Under the pieces are notes generated by a model. The model saw only the letters and a program-made list of their open reading frames with translations, was not told the origin of the DNA and ran no database searches. The translations under genes and the position numbers were made by a program. A DNA stretch of 54,517 bases from a virus: IMG/VR virus record IMGVR_UViG_3300044577_000018, positions 1-54,517 of that record, one strand, 5' to 3'. Shown piece after piece: positions 4,914-52,283 of the stretch (positions within the stretch are counted from its first letter, which is position 1; every line of letters begins with the position of its first letter).

Positions 4914-5033
4914 CCTGCGTTGTTTAGTCGCCTCTGGCTGTCACCGACGCGGCTCTTTTGCTCCGACGCAGGTTTCCGCTGTAAGGAGCCTGTAGCTCGA
5001 AGCCCATCGGCGGGTTACCGGGTTACAGGCTCC
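4914..5033 (+). promoter_or_regulatory. Structured leader upstream of prohead protease
   Basis: The gene-free stretch from 4747 to 5055 has two inverted repeats downstream of the promoter. CCTGCGT (4914-4920) pairs with ACGCAGG (4966-4972), and GGAGCCTGTA (4985-4994) pairs perfectly with TACAGGCTCC (5024-5033). No T-run follows, so it is not an ordinary terminator. A nearby GGCTC (5034-5038) could compete for the second stem. The rest of the stretch, 4747-4859, shows nothing recognisable. A regulatory leader is inferred from the layout. Confidence 0.4.
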
Positions 5034-5055
5034 GGCTCAAGAGGGCCTATATTAG

Positions 5056-7812: not shown

Positions 7813-7862
7813 GCTAGAGCGCCTTGTACTAGTTGGGTGTGAGGGCGCTCTAGCTTTTTTTT
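7813..7862 (+). terminator. Rho-independent terminator after capsid genes
   Basis: A perfect 11-bp stem, GCTAGAGCGCC (7813-7823) with GGCGCTCTAGC (7844-7854), has a 20-base loop and is followed at once by eight T (7855-7862). It would end the protease-capsid transcript before the next gene. Confidence 0.85.
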
Positions 7863-7877
7863 GAGAAAGGCTGCTTC

Positions 7878-24083: not shown

Positions 24084-24153
24084 GATCAGCCAGAGGTTAC
24101 TGCTCTAACGTCCTCCTGTTGGAGCGGTACGAGGGGATGTCGGGCAGATGTAC

Positions 24154-24201
24154 GGTGATTCCCGTAGCGGGTTATCGGGTGATTCCCGTGACGGTTACCG
24201 G
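24154..24201 (+). repeat. Tandem 24-bp direct repeat upstream of endolysin
   Basis: Two adjacent copies (24154-24177 and 24178-24201) share the core GGTGATTCCCGT and differ at a few later positions. They lie in the 147-base gap before the amidase. An imperfect hairpin, GCTCTAAC with GTTGGAGC, lies just upstream at about 24102-24125. An operator or regulatory role is possible but untested. Confidence 0.5.
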
Positions 24202-24230
24202 CTTGTCCGGCACCCCTTTAGGAGTTAGTT

Positions 24231-30311: not shown

Positions 30312-30702
30312 GACGCTACAGGTTGCGGTGCTCTATTCTGATCTCGCTGTATGCAAGGTGGAGTGGTCGGGGAAAGAAACCCTAAAACGTGACGACGTTC
30401 TCGCAATCGCGATAGTTCACCCGAAGGAAGAAGCTCGTAGGAAGCGCCACCAGGCCGTCATCGAGCATGACTTTTACGTACTTGCATGGACGGATACCGA
30501 ATGCTACCTCGGTGGCTACGACGACGACTATTACTGGTTCAGCCTGACTGAACCATGGAAGCCGTACGGTGAAGGATTCACGCATCGGTTTCCGTTCACA
30601 CTTCCAGAGAACTCAATGCTGTTCGAAGGTGTCTTCGTTGACAAGGAAGTCTACGCACAGGCGAAGCTGATCTTCGGTGACCGTGAAGGGCCGATGTTCT
30701 AA
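30301..30702 (+). CDS. Hypothetical protein
   Basis: A 133-residue protein that overlaps the preceding gene and shares a one-base junction with the next (TAATGG). It has two apparently folded parts: VAVLYSDLAVCKVEWSG and the aromatic, acidic GGYDDDYYWFSLTEPWKPYG. It is probably part of the appendage cluster. No motif is recognised. Confidence 0.45.
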   Translation: MLSKTLQVAVLYSDLAVCKVEWSGKETLKRDDVLAIAIVHPKEEARRKRHQAVIEHDFYVLAWTDTECYLGGYDDDYYWFSLTEPWKPYGEGFTHRFPFTLPENSMLFEGVFVDKEVYAQAKLIFGDREGPMF

Positions 30703-33632
30703 TGGCATTCGTTAGTCCTGATCTTGCGGAAGGTGTCAACCTTACCAGCGCCGCTGCCGACGACGGATCGAAAAATACAGAAGCCAACCTGAACGACGGC
30801 AATACCGGCACCACAGCCTTGAACGAAATCCGGAAAGGGATGTCTGGGTACAAGATGACCCACGACATCGGCTTCGCCGTCGCGAACATCGATACTCTCA
30901 AGGTCCGTGCGTTCGACGGCGTGATGATGGCGACGGGCGACAGCCCGATCTACCCGTACTCGTCGGGCGACGTAGCAGTTGTCACTGGCAACGAGCAGAA
31001 CCTAACGATAAACGACAACGGCGCCTACGACGAGATCACTATGTCGGCGGCCTTTATCGCTGACCTTGGTGACGTCGGTACTAACCAGATCAGTATCCGC
31101 TTCTCGTATGACGGGTCTATTCGCGGTCGGTTCAATCAGATACAGCTTGAGGTGACGGAAGCCGCAAGCGGATCAGTTGGATCGTCCTCAGGGCTTGCTA
31201 CCGTTCTCGCTGTAGGACTGTCGCTATTCTCGGGAGTAGGGTCTAGTGCGGGCGCGGCTACTGTCTCAGGTGCGGGCGCGGCCATACATTCAGCTACAGG
31301 CGCTAGCGCAGGTACTACAACTGTCTTGGGTGCCGGAGCTGCTATCCACTCAGCCGTGGGGGCTAGCGCGGGTGTCGCTACCGTCTTAGGTGTAGGGCAA
31401 GCTGTAATCGGCGGCAGCGTCGGCGCTAGTGCGGGCGATTCAACTGTTCTAGGCGTTGGTGCTTCTATCCACTCTGGTGTTGCCTCAAGTGCCGGTACTT
31501 CAACCGTCCTAGGCGTCAGCGCTTCTACGAATGCGGTCACGGCTTCTAGTGCTGGGGTCGCTACTGTATCCGGGGTGGGGGTTGGCGTCCATTCGGCTAT
31601 AGCCTCGTCTGCCGGTACAACCGTTGTACTGGGTGTGGGGGCTGCTACAGGAGGTTCTATTGGCGCTAGTGCAGGCAGCTCAACTGTTGTAGGTGTAGGG
31701 GCTCCTCTTGTTTCAGTTGTTGGCGCGGCATCGGGTACGTCAACCGTTCTAGCCGTTAGCGCATCCACGAACGCGGTCACAGCTTCCAGTGCCGGTATAG
31801 CTACAGTAGTCGGGGTAGGGGTTGGTATTCACTCGACTGTAGCCTCGTCAGCTGGCGCTGCTACCGTCACAGGTCTAAGTGTTGATGAGATCGTATTGTG
31901 CTTGTCGGCCAACATAGCCGCAAGCGGTGAGAACACCACCGCACAACTCACAGCGCCATCCGGTAAAACTACCGGCGACTTTGATGCCGGTCGTATACAG
32001 GATGACGAAAACCCGGCCGATGCTGTAGACATTACCCTTGACGACTACACCGAGATGGAGTGGGCGATCAAGGGTAGCGTCACCGCCGCGCTTGCTCAGT
32101 ATGAATTCCGCGTCACGGTCAGCGGCACAGTACTAGATACCTACACCGTTACCCCTAAGCTGACCTTTACCGATGTAACCGGTTCCGTTGCTGCTAGCGC
32201 GGGTACTACAGCGGTCGTAGGCGTAGGTACTGGTATTGCGTCGGGGGTTGCGAGCTCGGCTGGCGTTGCAACTGTATCCGGGATAGGGGCCGGTGTTCAT
32301 TCAGGCGTTGGCGCTAGCGCGGGCGTAGCGACTGTTACGGGTGTTGGAGCCGCTATACATTCTGCCGTTGGCTCTGCAGCGGGCACCGCTACCGTACTAG
32401 GGGTTAGCGCCTCCACGAATGCCGTAACCGCGAGTGCAGCCGGTACGTCAACCGTATTAGCCATCAGCGCCTCTACCAACGCGGCTACGGCTTCGTCTGC
32501 TGGTGTCGCAACCGTCATCGGTGTAGGTGCGGCCACTCACTCAGCGGTAGGTGCGGCGTCAGGTACCACTACCGTCGTAGGCGTCGGCGCGGGTGTCGTG
32601 TCATCGGTTGGTAGCTCAGCCGGTACAACAACTGTAGTAGGTACTGGGGCTGCTATCCACTCAGCCGTAGCAAACGCGGCTGGCACTACGACTGTATTAG
32701 GTATTGGTCAAGCGGTAACAGCGGGATCGGTTGGCGCTAGTGCAGGCGCTTCAACCGTTCTAGGTATCGGAGCGGCTACCCACTCAGCTGTTGGATCGGC
32801 CGCCGGGACCACGGTCGCGTTAGGCGTTAGCGCCTCCACGAATGCCGTTACAGCATCTAGCGCGGGTGTCGCGACCGTCTTAGGGGTTGGGACGGGCGTA
32901 GCTTCAGGTGTCGGCTCAAGCGCAGGCGCTACAACAGTCACAGGTGTAGGCGTCGGATTAGCCTCTTCGGTGGCGGCCACCTCAGGCAGCTCTGTTGTCT
33001 TAGGAGTTGGAGCTGCTACCCACTTAGCCGCCGGCTCGAGTGCAGGCACCTCTACCGTACTAGGGGTTAGTGGAGCCGGTATTACGGCGGCTGTAGGATC
33101 GGCTGCCGGTACCTCGACTGTAGCGGGTATCGGCGCTGCGACAGCTTCTAGCACTGCTGCGGCTACGGGTACAACTGTTGTCTTAGGAGTTGGCGCTTCT
33201 ACCGCTACCGCTGTAGCATCCAGCGCTGGCGTCGCAACTGTTACGGGTGTTGGTACCGGTCTCGTTGTTTCTGTCGGCACCAGCGCAGGTGCTTCAACCA
33301 TCGTAGGTGTCGGTACTGGGGTTGCATCCAGTATCGCTTCCTCGGCAGGCGTTGCTACCGTAGCGGGTGTCGGTAGAGCTACCCACTCAGCTATTGCGAG
33401 TGCAGCCGGTACAACAACCGTAGCGGGTATCGGTGCCAGTACAGCTTCCAGCATTGCTTCCTCTGCTGGTGTCGCTACAGTGCTAGGCATTGGCACCGAT
33501 GTGTCCGCGCTTATAGGGGATGTTATCATTGCTACGGTTGTGGATCTCAACGCCACACGTACGGTAGCGGATCTAAATACCACACGTACCGTCGCAGCTC
33601 TGGTAACAAAACGTACGACGGTAAAATTGTAG
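30702..33632 (+). CDS. Large repetitive tail/appendage protein
   Basis: A 976-residue protein. Residues 1-155 form a beta-type head (including VTGNEQNLTINDNGAYDEIT). About 34 near-20-residue units follow, with consensus SSAGxxTVxGVGxxxxSxV, in two blocks of about 12 and 22 units. The blocks are separated by a distinct domain at about 393-490 (SANIAASGENTTAQLTAPSG). The C-terminus carries short TVADLNTTRT-type repeats. Low-complexity Gly/Ala/Ser/Thr/Val units like these occur in phage tail proteins and probably form a long fibre or coat. The same unit occurs twice in the 18515 protein. Confidence 0.6.
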   Translation: MAFVSPDLAEGVNLTSAAADDGSKNTEANLNDGNTGTTALNEIRKGMSGYKMTHDIGFAVANIDTLKVRAFDGVMMATGDSPIYPYSSGDVAVVTGNEQNLTINDNGAYDEITMSAAFIADLGDVGTNQISIRFSYDGSIRGRFNQIQLEVTEAASGSVGSSSGLATVLAVGLSLFSGVGSSAGAATVSGAGAAIHSATGASAGTTTVLGAGAAIHSAVGASAGVATVLGVGQAVIGGSVGASAGDSTVLGVGASIHSGVASSAGTSTVLGVSASTNAVTASSAGVATVSGVGVGVHSAIASSAGTTVVLGVGAATGGSIGASAGSSTVVGVGAPLVSVVGAASGTSTVLAVSASTNAVTASSAGIATVVGVGVGIHSTVASSAGAATVTGLSVDEIVLCLSANIAASGENTTAQLTAPSGKTTGDFDAGRIQDDENPADAVDITLDDYTEMEWAIKGSVTAALAQYEFRVTVSGTVLDTYTVTPKLTFTDVTGSVAASAGTTAVVGVGTGIASGVASSAGVATVSGIGAGVHSGVGASAGVATVTGVGAAIHSAVGSAAGTATVLGVSASTNAVTASAAGTSTVLAISASTNAATASSAGVATVIGVGAATHSAVGAASGTTTVVGVGAGVVSSVGSSAGTTTVVGTGAAIHSAVANAAGTTTVLGIGQAVTAGSVGASAGASTVLGIGAATHSAVGSAAGTTVALGVSASTNAVTASSAGVATVLGVGTGVASGVGSSAGATTVTGVGVGLASSVAATSGSSVVLGVGAATHLAAGSSAGTSTVLGVSGAGITAAVGSAAGTSTVAGIGAATASSTAAATGTTVVLGVGASTATAVASSAGVATVTGVGTGLVVSVGTSAGASTIVGVGTGVASSIASSAGVATVAGVGRATHSAIASAAGTTTVAGIGASTASSIASSAGVATVLGIGTDVSALIGDVIIATVVDLNATRTVADLNTTRTVAALVTKRTTVKL
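31177..33520 (+). repeat. Coding repeat array (about 34 units of 60 bases)
   Basis: The protein-level repeat (20 residues, 60 bases) spans 31177-31890 and 32185-33520. The units vary in codon choice, so the DNA copies are diverged while the protein pattern stays conserved. That argues against recent slippage alone and for selection on the protein. Confidence 0.7.
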
Positions 33633-34063: not shown

Positions 34064-34085
34064 ACAGCTAAGCCGTAATTAGCAC

Positions 34086-34115
34086 TTGACAGCTAGTCAC
34101 GTAGGGTTTTATACT
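34086..34115 (+). promoter_or_regulatory. Sigma70-like promoter before replication module
   Basis: TTGACA at 34086-34091 and TATACT at 34110-34115 are separated by 18 bases. The surrounding CACTTGACAGCTAGTCACGT (34083-34102) is repeated exactly at 45885-45904. It points to the first replication gene, whose ribosome site AAGGAG lies only about 8 bases after the -10. Confidence 0.65.
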
Positions 34116-34303: not shown

Positions 34304-34515
34304 AAGGCTTGATATTAGGAAAAACCTACGATGTTGTGCACAGCCGCAAAGGTCATTTCTGTTTTCGTGTGGTGGCAGACGACGGTAAATGGGTAACCGG
34401 AGAGATTATCAGCGGTAGAGCAATAAACATCAGTCGCGATATCGCTGATAACGTCTCAGGCGAAGTAATAACTATTCGCAAAAACATGGCGTCGTTCGAC
34501 TTTGTAGAGAGTTGA
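34300..34515 (+). CDS. Hypothetical protein
   Basis: A 71-residue protein started at 34300 (ATGA overlap, GGAAGGGG ribosome site), with LILGKTYDVVHSRKGHFCFR followed by GEIISGRAINIS. A small beta-barrel-like fold is suggested. Short proteins of this form (KGLILGKTY) are common in phage early clusters; the function is unknown. Confidence 0.5.
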   Translation: MKGLILGKTYDVVHSRKGHFCFRVVADDGKWVTGEIISGRAINISRDIADNVSGEVITIRKNMASFDFVES

Positions 34516-34519
34516 CGCC

Positions 34520-36124
34520 ATGAAAGTCGCTAGCATGGATCTCTGGCCGGACGATCCGAACCCGACTCTAGAACCCGAGCCCGCGATATCCGATATAGTT
34601 CTCTCACCGCAACAAGCCGCGATCATGGACTGGGTTGACGACGGTAGCGGCTCCGCATTTGTCGAAGCGGTTGCCGGCTCTGGCAAGACGACTACATTAA
34701 TAGAAGCGTGCAAACGTATGTCTGGCTCCGTTGCCTTACTAGCCTTCAACAAGAAGATAGCCGACGAAATCAAGATGCGTATACGGGGTGTAGCTGACAA
34801 CGTACGCGCGGGCACCTTTCACAGCTTCGGGCTCGCTGCATGGAAGGGCCGCTATCCGAAAGTACGGGTAGACGCGCGCGCGAAGTCCAAGGCGATGATA
34901 GCGGAGTGTAAGGTGCCGTATCTTCTACAGCCGGCAGTCAAGAAGCTTGTGTCGTTAGCTAAGCAGGCAGGCGCAGAAGATACCCGACACAGGGAGACAG
35001 AAAAGACGTTTGTGCTTATAGACCACCTGATCGACCGTCATGACGTCATAGCTGATGTCGATACACGAGGCATGGATCAGGAAGCGATAGCGGATGTCGT
35101 TTTAGACTTAGGTAAGTATGCGGTGAGGTGCCTCGAATGGTCGCGCGAAGCCGGCTCACATACTATCGACTACGACGATATGATCTGGCTTCCTGTCACT
35201 ACTCAGGGTGCTAGCTTCACGTACTACGACTGGGTTCTAGTGGACGAAGCCCAGGACACGAATACCGTACGTCGCATGCTGTCCTCTCAAATATGTACAC
35301 TCGACGCGCGTACTATCTGGGTCGGTGACAGACACCAAGCGATTTACGGTTTCACTGGAGCGGACGCGAACGCGATCGATATCATTATTAAGAAGTTCGA
35401 TTGCACTTCGCTACCCCTTACCACCACGTACCGATGCCCGAAAGCTGTTGTACGGGTAGCCCAGCAGTGGGTTAGTCATATCGAAGCTCATGAGTCGGCA
35501 CCCGAGGGACTCGCGTACACTACGTCTGCCGCACTCGAAGAGTGCAATCTAGTTACCGGAGACGCCATATTGTGCCGCAATACCCGGCCGCTAGTGTCGC
35601 TTGCCCTTGCCCTTACACGACGCGGCAAGGGGTGTCATGTAGAGGGACACGACATAGGGCAAGGATTGATCCGCATGGCGACTCAGTGGAAGGTGCAATC
35701 GGTAGCCGGGCTTATTAAAAACCTCGAGGCGTACCGCATCCGAGAGACTGAGCGGCTACGAGCTCGGGAAGCTGACTACGCTATCGAAGCTCTCAACGAT
35801 CGTATTGATACCTTGTTAGTCATCACGGACGGATGCGACACGGTAGCCGAGTTGACGGCTAAGATAGACGGTATGTTCCAAAACACGACGAGCGAGGGCA
35901 AGGCTAGCACGATCATTCTTTCGACAGTTCACAAGGCGAAGGGGCGCGAGTGGGATCGGGTTTTTATTCTCGGCTTCGATATCTATATGCCGTCCAAGTG
36001 GGCTAAGAAGAGCTGGCAGAAGGATCAGGAGACTAACCTAATGTACGTAGCGGCAACGCGCGCCAGGAAAGAGCTAGTGATGCAGATAGGTGATTTGAAA
36101 GCGAGAGATGGGGTGGAGCGGTGA
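34520..36124 (+). CDS. SF1 (UvrD/Rep-type) DNA helicase
   Basis: The 534-residue product has the SF1A helicase motifs. Motif I EAVAGSGKTTTL lies near 48-59, motif II DWVLVDEAQDTN near 236-247, and motif III/IV follow in WVGDRHQAIYGFTGADANAI. Motif V TVHKAKGREWDRVFI and motif VI MYVAATRARKEL lie near the C-terminus. It unwinds DNA 3'-5' during replication or repair in the usual family mechanism. It is the first enzyme of the replication block, immediately after two small genes. All catalytic motifs are intact. Confidence 0.88.
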   Translation: MKVASMDLWPDDPNPTLEPEPAISDIVLSPQQAAIMDWVDDGSGSAFVEAVAGSGKTTTLIEACKRMSGSVALLAFNKKIADEIKMRIRGVADNVRAGTFHSFGLAAWKGRYPKVRVDARAKSKAMIAECKVPYLLQPAVKKLVSLAKQAGAEDTRHRETEKTFVLIDHLIDRHDVIADVDTRGMDQEAIADVVLDLGKYAVRCLEWSREAGSHTIDYDDMIWLPVTTQGASFTYYDWVLVDEAQDTNTVRRMLSSQICTLDARTIWVGDRHQAIYGFTGADANAIDIIIKKFDCTSLPLTTTYRCPKAVVRVAQQWVSHIEAHESAPEGLAYTTSAALEECNLVTGDAILCRNTRPLVSLALALTRRGKGCHVEGHDIGQGLIRMATQWKVQSVAGLIKNLEAYRIRETERLRAREADYAIEALNDRIDTLLVITDGCDTVAELTAKIDGMFQNTTSEGKASTIILSTVHKAKGREWDRVFILGFDIYMPSKWAKKSWQKDQETNLMYVAATRARKELVMQIGDLKARDGVER

Positions 36125-36402: not shown

Positions 36403-37719
36403 ATGACGCCTGCCGATCTAGGTCTACCTGCAAAGTTTACCGCTTTCCGAACCGGCCAAGCCGACCTAGTCCACTCTCTAGCCGAGCGTGACTACCGCTT
36501 CGATCTTCTATCCGCTCCTACGGGTTCTGGAAAGTCCGTCATTTATGTAGCAGCCGCTATCCTGTTCGATGCAGGGCGCACAGTGATCGTCACTAAAACC
36601 AAAATGCTTCAAGAGCAGCTAGAGCGTGACTTCGGTGAAATGGGCTTCGAGGACATACGCGGTAAAGATAGCTACTGTGCTATCGGTGACGTTGTACAGC
36701 TAAAGTATTGGAGAAAGAGGAACGCAGCTAAACGCTCGAGCTTCGTGGTAACAAATTACGCCTACTGGCTAACGAGACACCCGAAGGACGATGTCGGTAC
36801 GTTCGATTTACTCATCCTGGACGAAGCGCATCAAGCGCCAGACGGACTGTTAGCGTCCCGCATCAAGCTCTTTAAACCATCGTCGTGTCGGTCGCGCAAG
36901 CACTACGAGGACGAGTCTCGGTATGTGATAGACGCTACAAGAGACGCTAAAGGCCGTATGCGTGCTATCCCTATATGGACGCGCGACGAGGTACAAGAGC
37001 AAGCGGAGCGCTACCTATTCCGAGATATCGATAAGGTGATTCTAGTATCCGGTGTACTGCATCGTCGGGTTATAGATTATCTAGGACTACCTGAGAACCG
37101 TACGCGCTTTCAAGAATACGCTTCGCACTTCGATCCCAAGCGCCGGCCGCTGATCTACCTGCCGACTGCTCGAGTCGATCACCGTATTAATGAAGGCGGC
37201 ATGCGCCAGCTGGTAAACCGTATCGATCGAATCATTGAGAAGCACGCGATCGGTCTAGGTCAAAAGGGCATCATACACGCGGTCAGCTTTGTACGCGCTT
37301 GGGAGATAGCAAATCGCAGCTCCAACAAAAGCCGGCTGCTAACTCATGAATCCAACAATACGAAAGAGACGGTGAATAAGTTTAAGCGCGCTAAGCCCGG
37401 TACCGTACTGTTGAGTCCATCTGTAGAAGAAGGATACGACTTCCCGCTAGACGAATGCCGGTTTCAGATCCTAGTGAAGGTGCCTTTTGTGTACTCCAAA
37501 ACCCCGATCATCCAAGCGCGCGCTAAGTCCGATAAGCGCTACCTCGATTACATAACCGCAATGCGTGTTGTTCAGCAGGTGGGGCGCGGTATGAGGTCAG
37601 TAGATGACGAATGTACGTCGTATATTCTGGACGACCATTGGTTTTGGTTTCGGCACAAGTCGCGGGATATGTTCCCAGAGTGGTTTCAAAAGGCGTGGAA
37701 AGATAGGGTAACCGTATGA
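36403..37719 (+). CDS. SF2 helicase (DinG/XPD-like)
   Basis: The 438-residue product has the P-loop APTGSGKS (about 38-45) and a DEAH box LLILDEAHQAPD (DEAH at 140-143). The C-terminal motif VQQVGRGMRSVDDE is typical of DinG/Rad3-like enzymes that need a Q-x-x-GR box. The family often carries an Fe-S cluster of four Cys; here too few Cys are present near the expected place, so a cluster-free form is likely. It probably assists replication or repair. Confidence 0.8.
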   Translation: MTPADLGLPAKFTAFRTGQADLVHSLAERDYRFDLLSAPTGSGKSVIYVAAAILFDAGRTVIVTKTKMLQEQLERDFGEMGFEDIRGKDSYCAIGDVVQLKYWRKRNAAKRSSFVVTNYAYWLTRHPKDDVGTFDLLILDEAHQAPDGLLASRIKLFKPSSCRSRKHYEDESRYVIDATRDAKGRMRAIPIWTRDEVQEQAERYLFRDIDKVILVSGVLHRRVIDYLGLPENRTRFQEYASHFDPKRRPLIYLPTARVDHRINEGGMRQLVNRIDRIIEKHAIGLGQKGIIHAVSFVRAWEIANRSSNKSRLLTHESNNTKETVNKFKRAKPGTVLLSPSVEEGYDFPLDECRFQILVKVPFVYSKTPIIQARAKSDKRYLDYITAMRVVQQVGRGMRSVDDECTSYILDDHWFWFRHKSRDMFPEWFQKAWKDRVTV

Positions 37720-37886: not shown

Positions 37887-38711
37887 ATGGCACCTAAAAG
37901 AAAAGACCCGCCCGGCGTAGCGTCAATGAACCCGGATAACATGGTTTCCGGCGGGCTGATGGACGATTTCGACGGGCTGGTAACCAGGGCCCGTTTGTGT
38001 TTTTTCGACTACGAGGGTAAGGGGCAGCGCACTCTAGCTGTAGCCCTTGCTATCAAGCCGGACGACGACGACGAGTTTACTCAACACTACTCGAGCGGCA
38101 ACCCGGAGCACTTCTCGCCTACCATGGACGGCGTCAACCCAGCCGAAGAGGGCGTGTACGCCTTGCCTACGGATAACAAGTCGCAAATGAATAACAATAC
38201 CAACTGGGCGCACTTCACGCTGGCGTGTCTAGATGCCGGCTTTGCGAAAAAGGATCTAGGCGCTTCGGTCGAGTGGGTCGAGGGGTTGTACGGACACTTC
38301 AACCGGGTGCCTCAACGCAAGCGTTCCGGCATTCAAGTCGAAGCCGTGGGATCGGACGGCCGACAGAGGAGCAACGACATCCTCGTTGTCACCGAGATCA
38401 AGACTGCGCCTGCGGGTGCTGGAGCGGGTAGAGTTGCAGCTGCTACGGGCAAGGGCAAGGCGCTACCGGGGCACGGCTCGGCCGGGCCAGCAGATAGCGA
38501 TCTGGATGCACGTCTCTCGGAAGTCTTGCTGGTAGCTTTGGCTGAGTCTGAGGAAGGGATACCGAAGACCAAGCTAGCGGGATCGGTTATCAAGTCATTT
38601 ACTGGTGCCGAAAAAGCAAAAGCTGTGAAGCGCGTTAACGACTTGGCTTTTCTTGAGGCGGTCGATGGCGCAACCTTTGACGCGGACTCGGCTACCCTGT
38701 TTCTAGGATAG
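37887..38711 (+). CDS. Conserved replication-module protein with SMNP motif
   Basis: The 274-residue product, started at the ATG after AAGGGAG, begins with a basic tail and a PPGVASMNPDNMVSGG motif that recurs in the 39680-40780 protein. A folded domain at about 30-165 is followed by a Gly/Ala/Lys-rich linker (about 180-205) and a C-terminal domain that looks like a winged helix (LLVALAESEEGIPKTKLAGS). The architecture resembles DNA-binding accessory proteins, but I recognise no family. It is encoded just before the candidate structured RNA. Confidence 0.5.
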   Translation: MAPKRKDPPGVASMNPDNMVSGGLMDDFDGLVTRARLCFFDYEGKGQRTLAVALAIKPDDDDEFTQHYSSGNPEHFSPTMDGVNPAEEGVYALPTDNKSQMNNNTNWAHFTLACLDAGFAKKDLGASVEWVEGLYGHFNRVPQRKRSGIQVEAVGSDGRQRSNDILVVTEIKTAPAGAGAGRVAAATGKGKALPGHGSAGPADSDLDARLSEVLLVALAESEEGIPKTKLAGSVIKSFTGAEKAKAVKRVNDLAFLEAVDGATFDADSATLFLG

Positions 38712-38723
38712 GGTGCCGGTAGG

Positions 38724-38844
38724 GTGGGGGATTACAAACACGGCGGCGAGAGTCGCTTGCCGGGGCTTGACGAAGCCGACAAGGTGGAGGGTCTTAATAC
38801 GCTCTCTGTTGCGTCTCTCAGGTACCGGCCGCCGTGGCCCCCAC
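38724..38844 (+). ncRNA. Candidate structured RNA element
   Basis: The 152-base gap between genes holds nested helices. GTGGGGG (38724-38730) pairs with CCCCCAC (38838-38844), and CACGGCGGC (38739-38747) with GCCGCCGTG (38828-38836). GAGAGTCGC (38748-38756) pairs with GCGTCTCTC (38811-38819) with one mismatch. An inner hairpin GGCTT-GACG-AAGCC spans 38764-38777. A competing helix, GCCGGTA (38715-38721) with TACCGGC (38823-38829), overlaps the second. It resembles a switch or structural RNA; none of the classes I know matches. Confidence 0.5.
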
Positions 38845-38863
38845 TTCCGAGGTTTGAAACGCT

Positions 38864-39442
38864 ATGACGCCTAAGCTAATAGCTTCCGGCCTATCCGAGC
38901 TCGTACCCATGCAGCGATCGGGCGACGAGACCCACCACGTCTCCTGGATCATTCGTGAGCTGTGCATCAAGCTTGGCCATTTTACTACGTCTTCTATGAC
39001 ACCCGAGCAGCAGACGCGAATGGAGCTCGGCTCGGTATTCGAGGACGCGGTTGTACATGCGCTAGCAGCTAGATACGCAAGCTCAGATGACAGCTTTGTG
39101 CAACCCGGTGAGTTCGAGCTAGACGGCTTGATAGGGACGCCTGATCTGCTAGATAACCAGGTAGGCGCGCTCACGGTTATCGAGATCAAGCTTACCTGGA
39201 TGTCCTCTCGCTGGGATCCCGAAGACGTCAAGTACTGGCGCTACTGGGTTCAGCTCATGGCTTACTGCAAGCTAGTGGGTACGCCACATGGCAGACTCCA
39301 CGTATGCCACATTAACGGCGACTACCGCGAGAACCGGCTACCCGACTACAAAGTTTATGAGGTAGAATTTAGTCGAGCCGAACTGGACGAGAATTGGCGC
39401 ATGCTGGTTACAAACGGGAAAGTCCTAAGGGGAAAACGGTGA
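38864..39442 (+). CDS. PD-(D/E)XK exonuclease/Cas4-RecB-like nuclease
   Basis: The 192-residue product carries the PD-(D/E)XK fold landmarks. A helix with G56 and E60 (ELGSVFEDAV) is followed by GTPDLL with Asp94, EIK with Glu107 and Lys109, and the downstream helix motif QLMAY (Gln130 and Tyr134). This is the RecB/lambda-exonuclease style found in phage recombination modules. It would digest a DNA end to single strands for the Sak4-like protein nearby. Confidence 0.82.
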   Translation: MTPKLIASGLSELVPMQRSGDETHHVSWIIRELCIKLGHFTTSSMTPEQQTRMELGSVFEDAVVHALAARYASSDDSFVQPGEFELDGLIGTPDLLDNQVGALTVIEIKLTWMSSRWDPEDVKYWRYWVQLMAYCKLVGTPHGRLHVCHINGDYRENRLPDYKVYEVEFSRAELDENWRMLVTNGKVLRGKR

Positions 39443-40802: not shown

Positions 40803-41600
40803 GTGGCCAAGACGCCGGAGCACCTCAGACCCGACCCCTCTGTCATCTGGGAGGACGCCCCCACCGAGTTCGTCCGCCGCTTTACCCATATGGGTATTTA
40901 CGGTGATACCGGCACCGGGCGCACCTCTCTTGCTCTTACCGCACCTGGTCCTATCGGACTCGCCCACACGGCTGAGAAGATCGACGGCGTGGTACAGCAG
41001 CACTCAAAAGAGAAGGTGATCCGCGTCGTCAACTTCGGCGGCGTTTTCTCCGGCAGCCCCCAGCAGATAGCCGAGCAAGCAAACCCCAAATGGGAAGCGC
41101 TCAAGGTTGCTTGGAATGACGGCGTCGATAACTGGGCCAAGACTGTAGTCATGGATACCGACACCGAGGCGTGGGAGATATTACGCCTCGCACGCTTCGG
41201 CACTCTTGCACCTAAGGGGCGCATGGATAACCTCTACGGTCCCGTCAACGCAGAGTGGCGCGGCGTCATCAAACGGCATCGGCTAACCGAGCGCTGCAAC
41301 GTCATCACCATAGGGCAAGCCAAGGACGAGTACATAGAAAAGAAAACCGACAAAGGATCCATGGGCCAGCGTACGGGTCGCACTGTTCGAGCTGGGCAAA
41401 AGGAGATCCCCTACATGGCGGATGTCATCGTACGTACACATAAGACTTATGCCGATGACGGCGGAGTTGTGTTCTCGGCTGTGATCGAGAAGGGTTGGTT
41501 TAATGCTTTTATCGAAGGCATGGAAGTCTTCGGGGATGAGGTGCGGTTCAGTTACATTATGAGTTTGGTAACCGAGACAGACGAGGAAGAATGGTTGTGA
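40803..41600 (+). CDS. Sak4-like single-strand annealing ATPase
   Basis: The 265-residue product matches the AAA_24/Sak4 family of RecA-like phage recombination proteins. A P-loop YGDTGTGRTSLAL lies near 33-45 and a Walker B-like TVVMDTDTEAWEIL near 114-127. The remaining core contains IGQAKDEYIEKK and VIVRTHKTYADD. The usual P-loop Lys is replaced by Arg40. This would anneal strands produced by the nearby nuclease. GTG start after AAGGAGC. Confidence 0.7.
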   Translation: MAKTPEHLRPDPSVIWEDAPTEFVRRFTHMGIYGDTGTGRTSLALTAPGPIGLAHTAEKIDGVVQQHSKEKVIRVVNFGGVFSGSPQQIAEQANPKWEALKVAWNDGVDNWAKTVVMDTDTEAWEILRLARFGTLAPKGRMDNLYGPVNAEWRGVIKRHRLTERCNVITIGQAKDEYIEKKTDKGSMGQRTGRTVRAGQKEIPYMADVIVRTHKTYADDGGVVFSAVIEKGWFNAFIEGMEVFGDEVRFSYIMSLVTETDEEEWL

Positions 41601-42375
41601 GGCGACATGGCGGGCGAGACCCGGTATGGTACGGCGCGGTCGGGTGCGGTCTGGTTAGGTCAGGCAGACGGGGCACGGAGAGACGGGGCGGGGCAAGACA
41701 CGGCCAGGCGTGGAATGGCTCGGTGGAGGTGAGGTCAGGTGAGGCAGGCGGGGCCGGGCGGGGCCGGGTATGGCCCAGTCAGGCGCGATGCGGCATGGTA
41801 AGACAAGGCAGGCGCGGTGGTGGCAGGGCTCGGTACGGTCAGGTCGGGCTGGATAAGGTTCGGTGAGGCAGGCATGGCATGGTCCGGAAAGGCTAGGTAC
41901 GGCAGGCGGGGCAGGTGTGGTCTGGCCGGGCTGGGCAGCATGAGGCACGGTTCGGTGTGGCATGGCTCGGTCGGATTCGGTACGGTTGGGTACGGCTGGT
42001 GAGGCTCGGCACGGCCCGGCGAGGTTAGGCGCGGCTCGGTGAGGTCGGGTCTGGTGGGGTTGGGTACGGTTCGGCGCGGCCTGGTCGGGTCAGGTCCGGC
42101 TGGGCAGGGCAGGCGAGGTGTGGTGACGTCAGGCAAGGCATGGTTGGGTGACGCCAGACAAGGTACGACGAGGCAGACAGAGCACGGCACGATTGGGTGT
42201 GGTGAGCCAAGGTGTGGTGGGGCAAGGCAGGCAGGTCGAGGTCCGGTTAGGTCGGGCGCGATCCGGCGTGGTAGAGCAAGGCAGGCAAGGCAGGCGCGAT
42301 ATGGCGCGGTCTGGTACGACCCGGCGTGGCTCGGTAAGGTTCGGTCTGGTCTGATAGGGCATGGCAGGCAAGGCA
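41601..42375 (+). repeat. Degenerate five-base (GGYNN) array 1
   Basis: The gap after the Sak4-like gene is filled by five-base units of the form GGYNN, with occasional four-base steps such as GGCA. The first two bases are almost always G and the third is C or T, while the last two vary freely. A stretch of 23 perfect units lies at 41996-42110. No stop-free frame here has the codon pattern of the phage's genes. It ends where the ribosome site of the next small ORF begins. Confidence 0.9.
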
Positions 42376-42390
42376 AAGGAGGAAGAAAGG

Positions 42391-43394: not shown

Positions 43395-43444
43395 TGATTC
43401 AGAGCTGCCGCTTGAAAGTTAAAAGCGGCAGCTCTGAATCTTTT
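43395..43444 (+). terminator. Strong Rho-independent terminator
   Basis: A perfect 18-bp stem, GATTCAGAGCTGCCGCTT (43395-43412) with AAGCGGCAGCTCTGAATC (43422-43439), has a nine-base loop and is followed by TTTTT (43440-43444). It ends the transcript after the 42503 gene. Confidence 0.85.
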
Positions 43445-43460
43445 ATCAGGAGGTTTTCAA

Positions 43461-43970
43461 ATGAACATGCCCAACACCAAAAGACGCGCGTTAGTAGAAA
43501 ACGCCATACGTGCACTAGAAGATGATCAAGGTTGCATAACGCCTGAGAATGTTATCGACGTCGCAAGGGATCCCAGAAGCGCTTTGCACTCAGAGTTCGA
43601 ATGGGATGACGCCAAGGCCGGACACGCCCACCGTCTGGACCAAGCTCGGGTACTCATTCGCAGTGTCAAGGTGGTCGTCACAATTGAAAGACACACGATC
43701 GCCGCTCCCTACTATGTGCGTGACCCTAATGTGCAGCCGGCCGAACAGGGCTATGTCGCGCTCGAACGCATACAAAAGGATCCACAAGGTGCGTTAGCTA
43801 TGCTGAATTACGAATTTACGCGGGCTAACGCACACTTGACGAGAGCGGAAGAGATAGCGGAGGCGGTTGGTATGAAGGCTGATTTGGCAGCTGCTATACG
43901 TAACGCTCGAGCTGCTAGCAAGAAGATCGAGAAGACGGTTAAGCGTTTGAAGGACAAGGGCGAAGAGTGA
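43461..43970 (+). CDS. Hypothetical helical protein
   Basis: A 169-residue mainly helical protein, RALVENAIRALEDDQGCITP at the start, with a beta-containing centre (VKVVVTIERHTIAAPYYVRD) and a long C-terminal coiled coil (ARAASKKIEKTVKRLKDK). It is preceded by CAGGAGG and lies between the terminator and array 2. No family is recognised. Confidence 0.5.
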   Translation: MNMPNTKRRALVENAIRALEDDQGCITPENVIDVARDPRSALHSEFEWDDAKAGHAHRLDQARVLIRSVKVVVTIERHTIAAPYYVRDPNVQPAEQGYVALERIQKDPQGALAMLNYEFTRANAHLTRAEEIAEAVGMKADLAAAIRNARAASKKIEKTVKRLKDKGEE

Positions 43971-44530
43971 CGGCAGGGTTAGATGCGGCCCGGTTCGGTC
44001 GGGCGCGGCTTGGCGGGTATGGCGCGGCAGGGCGAGGTGAGGTTCAGTCTGGTGAGGCTGGGCGAGGCGGGGTGAGGTATGGTCTGGTAAGGCAGGTGCG
44101 GCCGGGTTAGGTCTGGTCGGGCGAGATCAGGCGAGATGTGGCTTGGTCTGGTGAGGCAGGCAAAGGCAAGGCGCGGTACGGCTTGGTGGGGTCGAGTGAG
44201 GCTTGACTCGGCAGTCGGGGTCCGGCCCGGTTTGGCGCGGCAAGGTTAGGTAAGGCAGGTACGGCCCGACGGGGCTTGGTACGATAGGGTTGGGCGAGGT
44301 TCGGTAAGGCGTGGCAGGTGCGGTAGGTTCGGCTGGGTATAGTCTGGTTGGTCAGGTTCGGTAGGGTATGGTGCGGTCGGGTCCGGCGTGGCAGGCGAGA
44401 CACGGACTGGCCAGGTGAGGCGAGGCTGGGTTGGGCCGGGCGTGGTTTGGTACGGCAGACGAGGTTAGGTCAGGTAGGGCACGGTATTGTATGACTCGGT
44501 TCGGTTCGGTGAGGCAGGCGGGACTCGGCT
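43971..44530 (+). repeat. Degenerate five-base (GGYNN) array 2
   Basis: A second tract of the same GGYNN five-base periodicity begins at the stop of the 43461 gene and runs to just before the ERCC4 nuclease. Like array 1 it is G-rich, with variable last two bases and some slips of phase. Units such as GGTGA, GGCTG, GGCGA, GGCGG are read in the line 44041-44100. Confidence 0.88.
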
Positions 44531-45624: not shown

Positions 45625-45891
45625 GTGAAGCTCAAGGGCTGGGGTAAGGGCGTCTTGAATCTACGCACTGGACCCATTAGACCTGACACTCTTGAGCTCT
45701 GGATTCTTATCGACGGCCGCCCTAATATGTGGCACAAGCCCCGTGTCTCTACCCGATCGCACGGATCTCATGTTCTAACTCTCTGCGGCAGAAAAATGCG
45801 TAATACCGGCGTCTCCGCTGTCGACCATCTTAGAGACGAGCCTTGGCTGCAACCGCAACCCCGGTGCAAACGCTGCCGTATAGCCACTTGA
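45625..45891 (+). CDS. Hypothetical protein with C-terminal Cys motif
   Basis: An 88-residue basic protein with a GTG start. The sequence has GVLNLRTGPIRPDTLELWIL and, at the C-terminus, LTLCGRKMRNTG and RCKRCRIAT, which supplies CxxC. The stop (TGA at 45889) lies inside the promoter element for the polymerase. A zinc-binding role is possible. The ribosome site is poor, so the start is uncertain. Confidence 0.45.
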   Translation: MKLKGWGKGVLNLRTGPIRPDTLELWILIDGRPNMWHKPRVSTRSHGSHVLTLCGRKMRNTGVSAVDHLRDEPWLQPQPRCKRCRIAT

Positions 45892-45917
45892 CAGCTAGTC
45901 ACGTCGTGTGTTAGCTT
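45888..45917 (+). promoter_or_regulatory. Promoter-like element before DNA polymerase
   Basis: TTGACA at 45888-45893 lies in an exact 20-base copy (45885-45904) of the replication promoter at 34083-34102. The -10 region (TAGCTT at 45912) is weak. The start codon of the polymerase is only about 40 bases downstream and has no ribosome site, which hints at leaderless initiation. Confidence 0.45.
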
Positions 45918-49663: not shown

Positions 49664-49842
49664 GGTGCCCTGAGTGTGGAAACACTGTCGAATACCCGAC
49701 TGTCGATATAGGCATAGGAGAGGTGCAGTGTGGACCTGCATCCTGCCCCGAATGCAATTGGGCTGAAGAGGATCCTAAGGATAAGAGTGAGGCTGGTTTT
49801 GGTGAGATCCCTTGGGACGAAGGTGAGGACGAGTTTACATGA
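49660..49842 (+). CDS. Small zinc-ribbon protein
   Basis: A 60-residue protein with a GTG start at the previous gene's end. RCPECGNTVEYPTVDIGIG is followed by CGPASCPECNW, giving two CxxC pairs for zinc. The C-terminal half is acidic (DEGEDEF). The stop overlaps the next ATG. Function unknown. Confidence 0.55.
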   Translation: MRCPECGNTVEYPTVDIGIGEVQCGPASCPECNWAEEDPKDKSEAGFGEIPWDEGEDEFT

Positions 49843-51224
49843 CCCCTTACGAGCTCCTAACCAAGCTGTTCCACATACCCCGATCTCTAACCGGTCCCGG
49901 CGTGCGTGAGGCGTTATTCGTCATCAACACCGAGCTCGACGACCTGCTAACTATTCAGGAGGTCCCATCCGGCACCCGCGCTTATGACTGGGTAGTACCC
50001 CCTGAGTGGCGATTTAAGCTAGCGCGCATGAAACGTAAGGATACGGGTGACGTGGTATTCGATACCTCGAAAGGCGATTCTCCGCTGCACGTCGTTGGCT
50101 ACAGTGCATGTACTGATACGGCGCTCTGGTTAGAAGACAACGATCCGCACATACACGTAGGTCCTCGCGAAATGCCTAACGCGATCCCTTACGTCACGAC
50201 CTACTACGCGGATCCGCCTATGTGGGGCATTTGTCTGTCGCACAACCAGTACGAAGCCCTCGATCCTAAAGCCGAATACGCGATAGAGATCGTCTCCGAA
50301 TTCCTAGGTCCCGGCGAATGGCCCGACAGCCTACGCGCTAACGGATCCCTCACTTACGCCGAAGCGGTTATACCCGGCGACACGACGGACGAGATAGTAC
50401 TCTCGAGCTACATCTGTCATACAGGCGGCATGGCTAATAACGAGTGCTCAGGTCCGGCAGTGCTGACGGAGATCGTCAAGTGGTGGCGTAGTCAGCCGCG
50501 CCGATACACCTTGCGAATATTACTCGCACCCGAGACGATAGGCCCGCTCGTTTGGATGAGTCAACAAAAGGGGCCGGAGTCGTGGACAGGGCTTGACTGG
50601 CTCAAGGCGCACGTTAAAGCTGGCTTTACTCTTACGTGCATGGGAGGTGGTGGTACCGGCTACGTCCAGCAAGGCCGACACCCAACGTACGCGAGTCGAA
50701 TAGCTAAGGCGGCACTCGCTATGGGAGACGCGTCTAAGCGCGTGCTGAAGTGGCGATCTCGTATGTCGGACGAGCGCCAATGGTGTGCGCCTGGTATCGA
50801 CTTACCCTGGGCAACGATCATGAAAACGCACCCCAAGGATCCGGAATACGAATACAGATACCATACGTCGGCGGACGATCTTACCTACGTGACCGAAAAG
50901 CAGATAACCGAATCTGTAATAGCTGTAAAGGGTGTACTCGAGGCGGTAGAGCTCGATCGCGTATGGCGTACACGGGTCCTAGGAGAGCCGCAGCTAGGTA
51001 AGCGCGGTTTGTACGATACGATTTCGAAAACCGGGTCCTCTGCACCGTCGCGTTCTTTACTGGACGTGTTGTCGTATTGCGACGGCTGCAGCATGTTAGA
51101 GATAGCGGAGACACTCAAGCGTTCGTTTTCGAGTGTGCAGGCTGATATAGATCGGCTGCGTGAATTCAAACTTATACCGGTATCACGCATTTTTCTACCG
51201 CAGAAGGGTGTGGTGAAGTCATGA
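49839..51224 (+). CDS. DUF4910 aminopeptidase-like protein with winged helix
   Basis: The 461-residue product matches the DUF4910 type of M28-like peptidase fold found in surface-polysaccharide loci. LFHIPRSLTGPGVREAL lies at the N-terminus and LSSYICHTGGMANNECSGPA near 190. Further motifs are LAPETIGPLVWM, and DEVRYHTSADDL-like EYRYHTSADDLTYVTE near 340. The end SMLEIAETLKRSFSSVQADI is a winged helix (HTH_47 type). The metal ligands are partly altered (His-Thr rather than His-Pro), so catalysis is not certain. It precedes the acetyltransferase and PseG-like genes. Confidence 0.7.
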   Translation: MTPYELLTKLFHIPRSLTGPGVREALFVINTELDDLLTIQEVPSGTRAYDWVVPPEWRFKLARMKRKDTGDVVFDTSKGDSPLHVVGYSACTDTALWLEDNDPHIHVGPREMPNAIPYVTTYYADPPMWGICLSHNQYEALDPKAEYAIEIVSEFLGPGEWPDSLRANGSLTYAEAVIPGDTTDEIVLSSYICHTGGMANNECSGPAVLTEIVKWWRSQPRRYTLRILLAPETIGPLVWMSQQKGPESWTGLDWLKAHVKAGFTLTCMGGGGTGYVQQGRHPTYASRIAKAALAMGDASKRVLKWRSRMSDERQWCAPGIDLPWATIMKTHPKDPEYEYRYHTSADDLTYVTEKQITESVIAVKGVLEAVELDRVWRTRVLGEPQLGKRGLYDTISKTGSSAPSRSLLDVLSYCDGCSMLEIAETLKRSFSSVQADIDRLREFKLIPVSRIFLPQKGVVKS

Positions 51225-51475
51225 GTAGAAATAGCGAAAATAGGATCGTACTAGATCTTGTGAAGCGGATAACTCTGCTAGAGAGTCGGATAGCTCGTCT
51301 AGAGTCGGAGATAAGGGGGGCGGAGTGGGTTCCTGTACGTCAGATGACTAGCGCTGGCGGGTGCCGTTGGGTTCCGGCTTCGGCTTATCCTCACTACCCG
51401 CGTTACGATCTCATGCTCGAATATTGGCATGTAGGATATGACAGTGATAGCCGAGACAAGAGCCGAGACGTCTAA
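51221..51475 (+). CDS. Hypothetical protein with coiled coil
   Basis: An 84-residue protein whose start overlaps the DUF4910 stop by ATGA. Residues 8-33 form a heptad-like coiled coil (VLDLVKRITLLESRIARLES). An aromatic C-terminal part (WVPASAYPHYPRYDLMLEYW) resembles a small surface domain. It overlaps the next gene by 38 bases. Function unknown. Confidence 0.5.
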   Translation: MSRNSENRIVLDLVKRITLLESRIARLESEIRGAEWVPVRQMTSAGGCRWVPASAYPHYPRYDLMLEYWHVGYDSDSRDKSRDV

Positions 51476-52283
51476 AGCGGACCTAGTATCCGACTTGCAC
51501 GCTATGGGTGTAAGCAACCGCCACGTGATGGTGCATTCGTCCTACAAGCTGCTAGCGCCTGTCGAGGACGGTCCTAAGGGTGTTGTGGACGCGTTTGTGA
51601 AAGCTGTAGACGCGGGTACCTTGCTGTTCCCGACTTACGACTTTACGAGCTGGACGGAACGCGGATATTGGAGCCGAGACGATACGCCGTCTCAAATGGG
51701 CGTCATATCCGAGACAGCGCGCACAGATCCCCGGTTTTGGCGCACAACTCATCCGGTACTGAGCTACGCGGTCTATCACGATGCGAAAGGCGGGCGTGGG
51801 GGTAGGCGGGTGTGGGGGTACGGGGATGACGTCGTTAACGCGCACGGTCTCGGCTCTGTATTCGATCGGCTAGTTCGCAACCGGGGGCTTTTGATATCCA
51901 TAGGCGCTGAAAAGCAAACCGGGTTCCGTGCTAACGACACAGGCTTCACCATTTCAAACCACGCGGCTCTGTTAGCTGGTGCCCACTGGCGCAAGATAAA
52001 AGTGTTTGAAGGTCTTTATCAAGGCAAGGGCAGTATGCTACGCAGGTACGCGCTATCCGTTAACGCAGATCCGACCAAGTACGTAACGCAAGTAACACCC
52101 GCACACGTACAGGCCGAGAAAGAGGGCGTGATACAGCGTATGACGCTAGGTCGTACCGAGTGCTGGGTAGCGGATGCAGCCGAGTTCGTAGAGTGGGCTA
52201 TCCAAGCGCATAGGGATCGGCCTGAGTTGTGGTTTACGAGCTCGATGATGAGAGTCCCGGACTGGGATTGGAGCGACGTTTGA
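51438..52283 (+). CDS. AAC(3)-fold N-acetyltransferase
   Basis: The 281-residue product has the AAC(3) core. VMVHSSYKLLAPVEDGPKGV lies near 30-50, followed by TLLFPTYDFTSW and the TTHPVLSYAV motif whose His-Pro-x-x-Ser is diagnostic. Although the family is named for aminoglycosides, members in sugar loci acetylate amino sugars. Given its neighbours, a nonulosonic acid or amino sugar is the likely substrate. It is encoded between the DUF4910 and PseG-like genes. Confidence 0.75.
   Translation: MTVIAETRAETSKADLVSDLHAMGVSNRHVMVHSSYKLLAPVEDGPKGVVDAFVKAVDAGTLLFPTYDFTSWTERGYWSRDDTPSQMGVISETARTDPRFWRTTHPVLSYAVYHDAKGGRGGRRVWGYGDDVVNAHGLGSVFDRLVRNRGLLISIGAEKQTGFRANDTGFTISNHAALLAGAHWRKIKVFEGLYQGKGSMLRRYALSVNADPTKYVTQVTPAHVQAEKEGVIQRMTLGRTECWVADAAEFVEWAIQAHRDRPELWFTSSMMRVPDWDWSDV

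Follow-up and report, generated by a model that had tools for sequence, protein, structure and literature searches.

A long G+C-rich stem behind gene U of an uncultured tailed phage as a possible tail-less terminator or mRNA 3'-end stabiliser

The gap between gene U and a RecE-like exonuclease gene in an uncultured tailed phage (IMG/VR record IMGVR_UViG_3300044577_000018; all 54,517 bases were analysed and are called the window here) contains a long outer stem, P1+P2, which is present beyond chance. With confidence that is about evenly balanced, we read this stem as an intercistronic hairpin of the U 3' untranslated end, acting as a tail-less terminator or attenuator and/or as a 3'-end stabiliser. 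It is probably an ordinary operon hairpin, and neither a riboswitch nor a new class of RNA is demonstrated.

Results

The gap lies in an apparent replication operon

The neighbouring genes are all on the + strand, and the gap therefore looks like part of a replication/recombination operon (Table 1), with the helicase and U on one side and the exonuclease downstream, in agreement with the original prediction, which had placed a structured RNA between two replication genes. Promoter and terminator scans listed neither a sigma-70-like promoter nor a terminator site within the gap. Using blastn against 50,697 phage records we found no DNA relative of the tested stretch, and the best matches of the capsid protein were distant phages of proteobacteria (about 30-34% identity), so no host-specific rule was transferred to the window.

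Gene U had no Pfam or PHROG match. Its structure models were poor (pLDDT 52-56) and gave no significant Foldseek or PDB-profile match. At this low confidence they point to a beta domain at the N terminus and a winged-helix-like domain at the C terminus, and the idea that U is SSB-like remains a guess. The U stop codon is TAG at 38709-38711 and the stem begins 12 nt later. The region had been described as having no coding frame, which is not strictly right, since the U frame stays open for 51 codons past this TAG; stop-codon readthrough was none-the-less rejected, as the corresponding frames in relatives L006, L020 and L022 stop within 3-8 codons, and the readthrough peptide had no Pfam match.

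Table 1. Coordinates of the stem, its surroundings and a conserved element in two relatives
Feature	Position	Strand	Remarks
DEAD-box/Helicase_C_2 helicase	36403-37719	+	
Gene U, 274 aa from ATG	37887-38711	+	ORF open from TTG 37845; no family assigned
Intergenic gap, 152 nt	38712-38863	+	upstream ORF ends 38711, downstream ORF starts 38864
Competing arm GCCGGTA	38715-38721	+	partner TACCGGC, 38823-38829; pair probability 0
P1 5' arm GTGGGGG	38724-38730	+	pair probability 0.98-1.0; reaches 38722 with G-U pairs
8-nt bulge ATTACAAA	between P1 and P2 5' arms		
P2 5' arm CACGGCGGC	38739-38747	+	pair probability 0.89-0.98 for seven pairs, 0.3 for last two
Apical region	38748-38819	+	alternative small helices, no single defined fold; MFE and centroid disagree
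P3, 5+3 pairs	38748-38752 + 38754-38756 with 38811-38813 + 38815-38819	+	
Apical hairpin	38764-38768/38773-38777	+	
Apical hairpin	about 38786-38807	+	
P2 3' arm GCCGCCGTG	38828-38836	+	
P1 3' arm CCCCCAC	38838-38844	+	followed by TTCCGAGG
Probable Shine-Dalgarno GAGG of exonuclease gene	38849-38852	+	4 nt past P1; from sequence
PD-(D/E)XK RecE-like recombination exonuclease	38864-39442	+	phrog_434 E 5e-7; PF12705 below cut-off; homologues
Sak4-like annealing protein	40803-41600	+	
Conserved noncoding element, 69 nt	L021 1248-1316, L022 1758-1828		behind U; fold z -5.9 and -4.2

The outer stem ranks first among long closed stems of the window

The outer stem consists of 7 + 9 Watson-Crick pairs separated by an 8x1 internal loop and encloses ~80 nt. 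We scanned the 54.5-kb window for long closed stems, defined as at most two stacked helices with an inner loop of <=10 that enclose >=50 nt. The outer stem ranked first, with a score of 46 against 40 for the next, and 0 of 1000 dinucleotide-shuffled gap sequences scored as high; allowing G-U pairs and a smaller enclosed segment gave p 0.002. This statistic was devised after the feature had been seen, and the genome-wide rank is the fairer number. A canonical Rho-independent terminator carries a U tract right after its stem. Here the G+C-rich stem-loop is found with a pairing probability of ~1 in all but the last two P2 pairs, and directly after it stands TTCCGAGG instead of a U-tract, which bears out the earlier observation that no T-run follows. 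What the gap does contain is the arrangement of a tail-less, or I-shaped, terminator, a stem near a stop codon that is not followed by a U-tract.

All the helices originally described, of seven, nine and eight pairs (the last as 5+3) with an inner five-pair hairpin, exist in the sequence. Comparison of the whole fold with shuffles, the check that had been proposed for them, was borderline. For exactly 38724-38844 z was -3.25, but it was -1.59 for 38710-38850; p was 0.036 when the best window of 121 nt was taken, 0.15 with the whole gap and 0.10 when all window sizes were considered. Allowing for the choice of boundaries, the whole-fold energy is thus marginal (p 0.04-0.15), and some coding stretches of the window fold equally or more strongly for their G+C. 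Inner helices have a pair probability of about 0.3, and the interior fold as drawn makes up ~30% of the ensemble. The description as a structured RNA is supported for the outer stem.

The whole-gap and all-sizes values, together with closest relatives in which there is no gap, speak for a chance or relic inverted repeat without function in a tolerated gap. We consider this quite unlikely, given that the outer stem ranks above every other in the window, that three other lineages also carry long stems at this end of U and that the element of one pair of relatives (L021/L022) is conserved above its coding flanks. Compared with its own shuffles, the complementary strand does just as well (z -3.25), and the long perfect inverted repeat lies between the helicase/U gene and a recombination exonuclease, as might be expected of an element acting as DNA and not as RNA, such as a replication origin or a single-strand initiation hairpin. 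That explanation appears highly improbable, as GC skew is unchanged at the gap, no repeated protein-binding words were found in it and the stems that recur in relatives have no common sequence.

The competing helix is not populated at equilibrium

The original prediction had further proposed that a seven-pair helix competes with P2, as in a switch. This helix is present in the sequence, yet forcing it changes the folding energy from -68.3 to -58.6 kcal/mol, 9.7 kcal/mol worse, and it is essentially never paired at equilibrium, so the two mutually exclusive folds of comparable energy that mark a riboswitch were not found and the switch is not supported. The helix may have a transient role while transcription runs. 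A cis-regulatory RNA, either a riboswitch or a protein-binding leader, would control the exonuclease by alternating between the P2 fold and the 38715-38721/38823-38829 helix, which could form before the 3' arms of P1 and P2 exist, and the exonuclease Shine-Dalgarno adjoins the stem. Besides its energetic cost of about 10 kcal/mol, the competing helix does not touch the Shine-Dalgarno, no relative shows conserved aptamer-like sequence and the element is absent in L008 and L010, all of which makes such control very improbable.

Known RNA families argue against it in the same way. At gathering score there were 0 Rfam matches in the window and the ten relative loci, in line with the earlier statement that the feature resembles no known riboswitch or small RNA, and matches at a relaxed E-value were at chance level (E 1.3-8; for example HIV-1_DIS at 1.3 and CRISPR-DR9 at 5.1). 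A CRISPR-repeat mimic, considered because of GAGGTTTGAAAC at 38849-38860, was dropped at 13.4 bits against the 45 needed, and a tRNA/tmRNA search found none.

Unrelated long stems recur behind U in relatives

Relatives were found via the upstream gene and then by profile alignments, giving ten distinct loci that share the gene neighbourhood (L006, L008, L010, L011, L014, L020, L021, L022, L023 and L024); L025 is the same as L024 over the fetched stretch and was not counted separately. An intact U homologue is present in the fetched DNA of nine of the ten, and that of L023 is known from its 3' end only and was judged by eye. Although the flanking genes have relatives, the sequence of the element has no homologue in the ten loci, and a 20-mer search of viral_contigs gave no match. 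The element is single copy in its own genome, and exonuclease profiles detected no provirus relatives in genome_contigs.

L008, the nearest relative by exonuclease identity (58%, with U about 50-54% identical), has only 28 nt between U and the exonuclease, and in L010 the two genes are 4 nt apart; neither has the element. L006 has a 161-nt gap, which gives no meaningful alignment with that of the window, and carries a long stem, GTACCGGGG...CCCCGGTAC, followed by CTTTTTTG with its U6 tract, a terminator-like arrangement. In L020 a 13-pair perfect stem closes a multi-branched region, L021 and L022 have in common a stem of 17 pairs interrupted by a bulge of one base, in L011 GTTTTGG comes after a short hairpin, and the gaps of L014 and L024 are G+C-rich with no significant long stem. 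In L023 roughly 380 nt without an annotated gene (134-520) run from the end of the U homologue to the exonuclease, with a fold z of -2.46; against the drum RNA family this stretch scored weakly and below threshold (20.9 bits vs 43).

Tested with the closed-stem statistic, the window (p 0.002), L006 (0.028), L020 (<0.002), L021 (<0.002) and L022 (0.002) have a long closed stem behind U, as opposed to L014 (0.36), L011 (0.17) and L024 (0.54). Unrelated, similarly long closed stems therefore stand behind U in three lineages, L006, L020 and L021/L022. As 2 of 11 other noncoding stretches of the window also reached p <0.05, this recurrence is enriched but not exclusive. Furthermore, a control stretch of 152 nt from the U stop of L008 gave p 0.006 with a stem almost wholly in exonuclease coding sequence, which shows that a significant value of the stem statistic does not by itself mark a noncoding element. 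One could also imagine an RNA element conserved in position and free in sequence, a long closed stem with a branched apex re-invented repeatedly in an uncultured phage lineage behind the gene of a rapidly diverging replication protein, U, and recognised by shape, by U or a partner, for autoregulation of the replication module; we rate this as very unlikely.

The coding blocks of L021 and L022 are about 79-82% identical. Their 69-nt element behind U is 91% identical, compared with 78% for the median 69-nt window and about 55-75% for noncoding neighbours, and both stem arms are unchanged, with the differences confined to the apical loops. This pattern supports selection on the L021/L022 element, not directly on that of the window. 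The L021/L022 element had no Rfam match and would serve better than the element of the window to seed a search for an RNA family.

The gene that follows the stem is the exonuclease in the window and L006 and other small genes in L020, L021 and L022. Since the next gene varies by lineage, the stem goes with the 3' end of U, which favours a 3'-end role over a leader dedicated to the exonuclease. The same variation counts against the main rival, an RNase III-type site at which a host double-strand RNase would cut the duplex, separate the U and exonuclease messages and leave a protected end beside the exonuclease Shine-Dalgarno. This rival is unlikely in our estimation, but it draws on the position between cistrons of a replication operon, on >14 stacked pairs with an asymmetric bulge and on a stem that ends 4 nt before GAGG and 19 nt before the exonuclease ATG. 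Sites of this type are expected to be duplexes of about two turns that are cut in or near an internal loop; the stem here has 7+9 pairs with an 8x1 loop.

Other features of the record

Intergenic hairpins just before Shine-Dalgarno sites also occur at 43395-43445 (a perfect 18 pairs, then TTTTAT), 24090-24215, 4985-5040 and 7815-7865 (with T8), and a hairpin at 34484-34523, CATGGCGTC...GACGCCATG, would bury the helicase gene start codon at 34520. A 29-nt direct repeat, CACTTGACAGCTAGTCACGT..., at 34083-34111 and 45885-45913 is 90% identical, and by chance its 18-nt core would be expected 0.08 times. The two copies, upstream of the helicase and polymerase genes, are likely phage promoters or operator sites. 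Two arrays of a degenerate 5-nt unit, GGYNN, lie on the + strand at 41599-42378 and 43958-44518 (about 780 and 560 nt), with GGY every 5 bases and both N positions near random; 47 exact six-unit matches were counted, with 0 on the other strand and 0 in the ten relative records. We found no match to these arrays in the literature, and they are striking and may represent a new kind of repeat. Between the structural and replication genes, a 976-aa ORF (30702-33632) made up of repeats of about 20 residues (period of 60 nt in the DNA, motif like SSAGxxTVxGVG) had no Pfam or PHROG match. Near the right end, cargo-like genes at 49839-51224 and 51438-52283 encode a DUF4910/HTH_47/DUF2172 protein and an aminoglycoside 3-N-acetyltransferase-family (Antibiotic_NAT) protein.

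Discussion

In the mechanism we propose, P1+P2, a 16-pair G+C-rich stem, would fold directly behind the U stop codon during transcription of the operon, where it would probably pause the polymerase or partly terminate transcription as a tail-less, I-shaped terminator or attenuator, and/or shield the 3' end of the U mRNA from exonucleases, and U would consequently be made in excess over the exonuclease encoded downstream. We infer the transcription through the gap, the termination or stabilisation and the effect on the gene ratio. This attenuator/stabiliser reading draws on the top-ranked stem and its absence from the shuffles, on the long closed stems behind U in L006, L020, L021 and L022, on the U6 tract after the L006 stem and the GTTTTGG after the L011 hairpin, and on the conservation of the L021/L022 element with its unchanged arms. 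Against it stand the missing U-tract of the window stem, L008 and L010 with no gap or element, L014, L024 and L011 with no significant stem, strong folds in coding regions too, and the two other window gaps with significant stems.

In mycobacteria, hairpins that lack a U-tract and stand behind stop codons are reported to lower transcription in vivo (PMC5335608). Dependence on a U-tract is disputed (PMC5335608), and mycobacterial RNA polymerase reportedly requires a U-tract in vitro (as cited in PMC5335608). In a survey of 13 genomes, poly-U near hairpins was the exception, and hairpins <=80 nt from a stop codon without poly-U were common at RNA-seq ends (PMC8355165). Like the Mycobacterium TtsaD terminator (PMC5335608) and the tail-less terminators attributed to the early region of actinophage phiC31 (Ingham et al. 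1995, as cited in PMC5335608), the window has a G+C-rich stem behind a stop codon in an operon and no U-tract; unlike them, its stem is long and bulged with a ~80-nt branched apex, and termination at it is a prediction. The canonical Rho-independent terminator, exemplified at this boundary by L006, likewise places a long G+C-rich stem behind U, but L006 has CTTTTTTG after the stem and the window has no U-tract. The early region of phage T7 has five RNase III processing sites (PMC4858673), which are likewise irregular duplexes between cistrons of an early or replication operon and upstream of a Shine-Dalgarno, whereas the window apex is larger and multibranched.

If the proposed role is false, the element is ordinary. 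If it is true, this would be another phage operon that sets gene dosage via intercistronic hairpins lacking U-tracts, which terminator finders miss. The stems recurring behind U keep their position while their sequence is replaced, and covariation searches are therefore blind to such elements.
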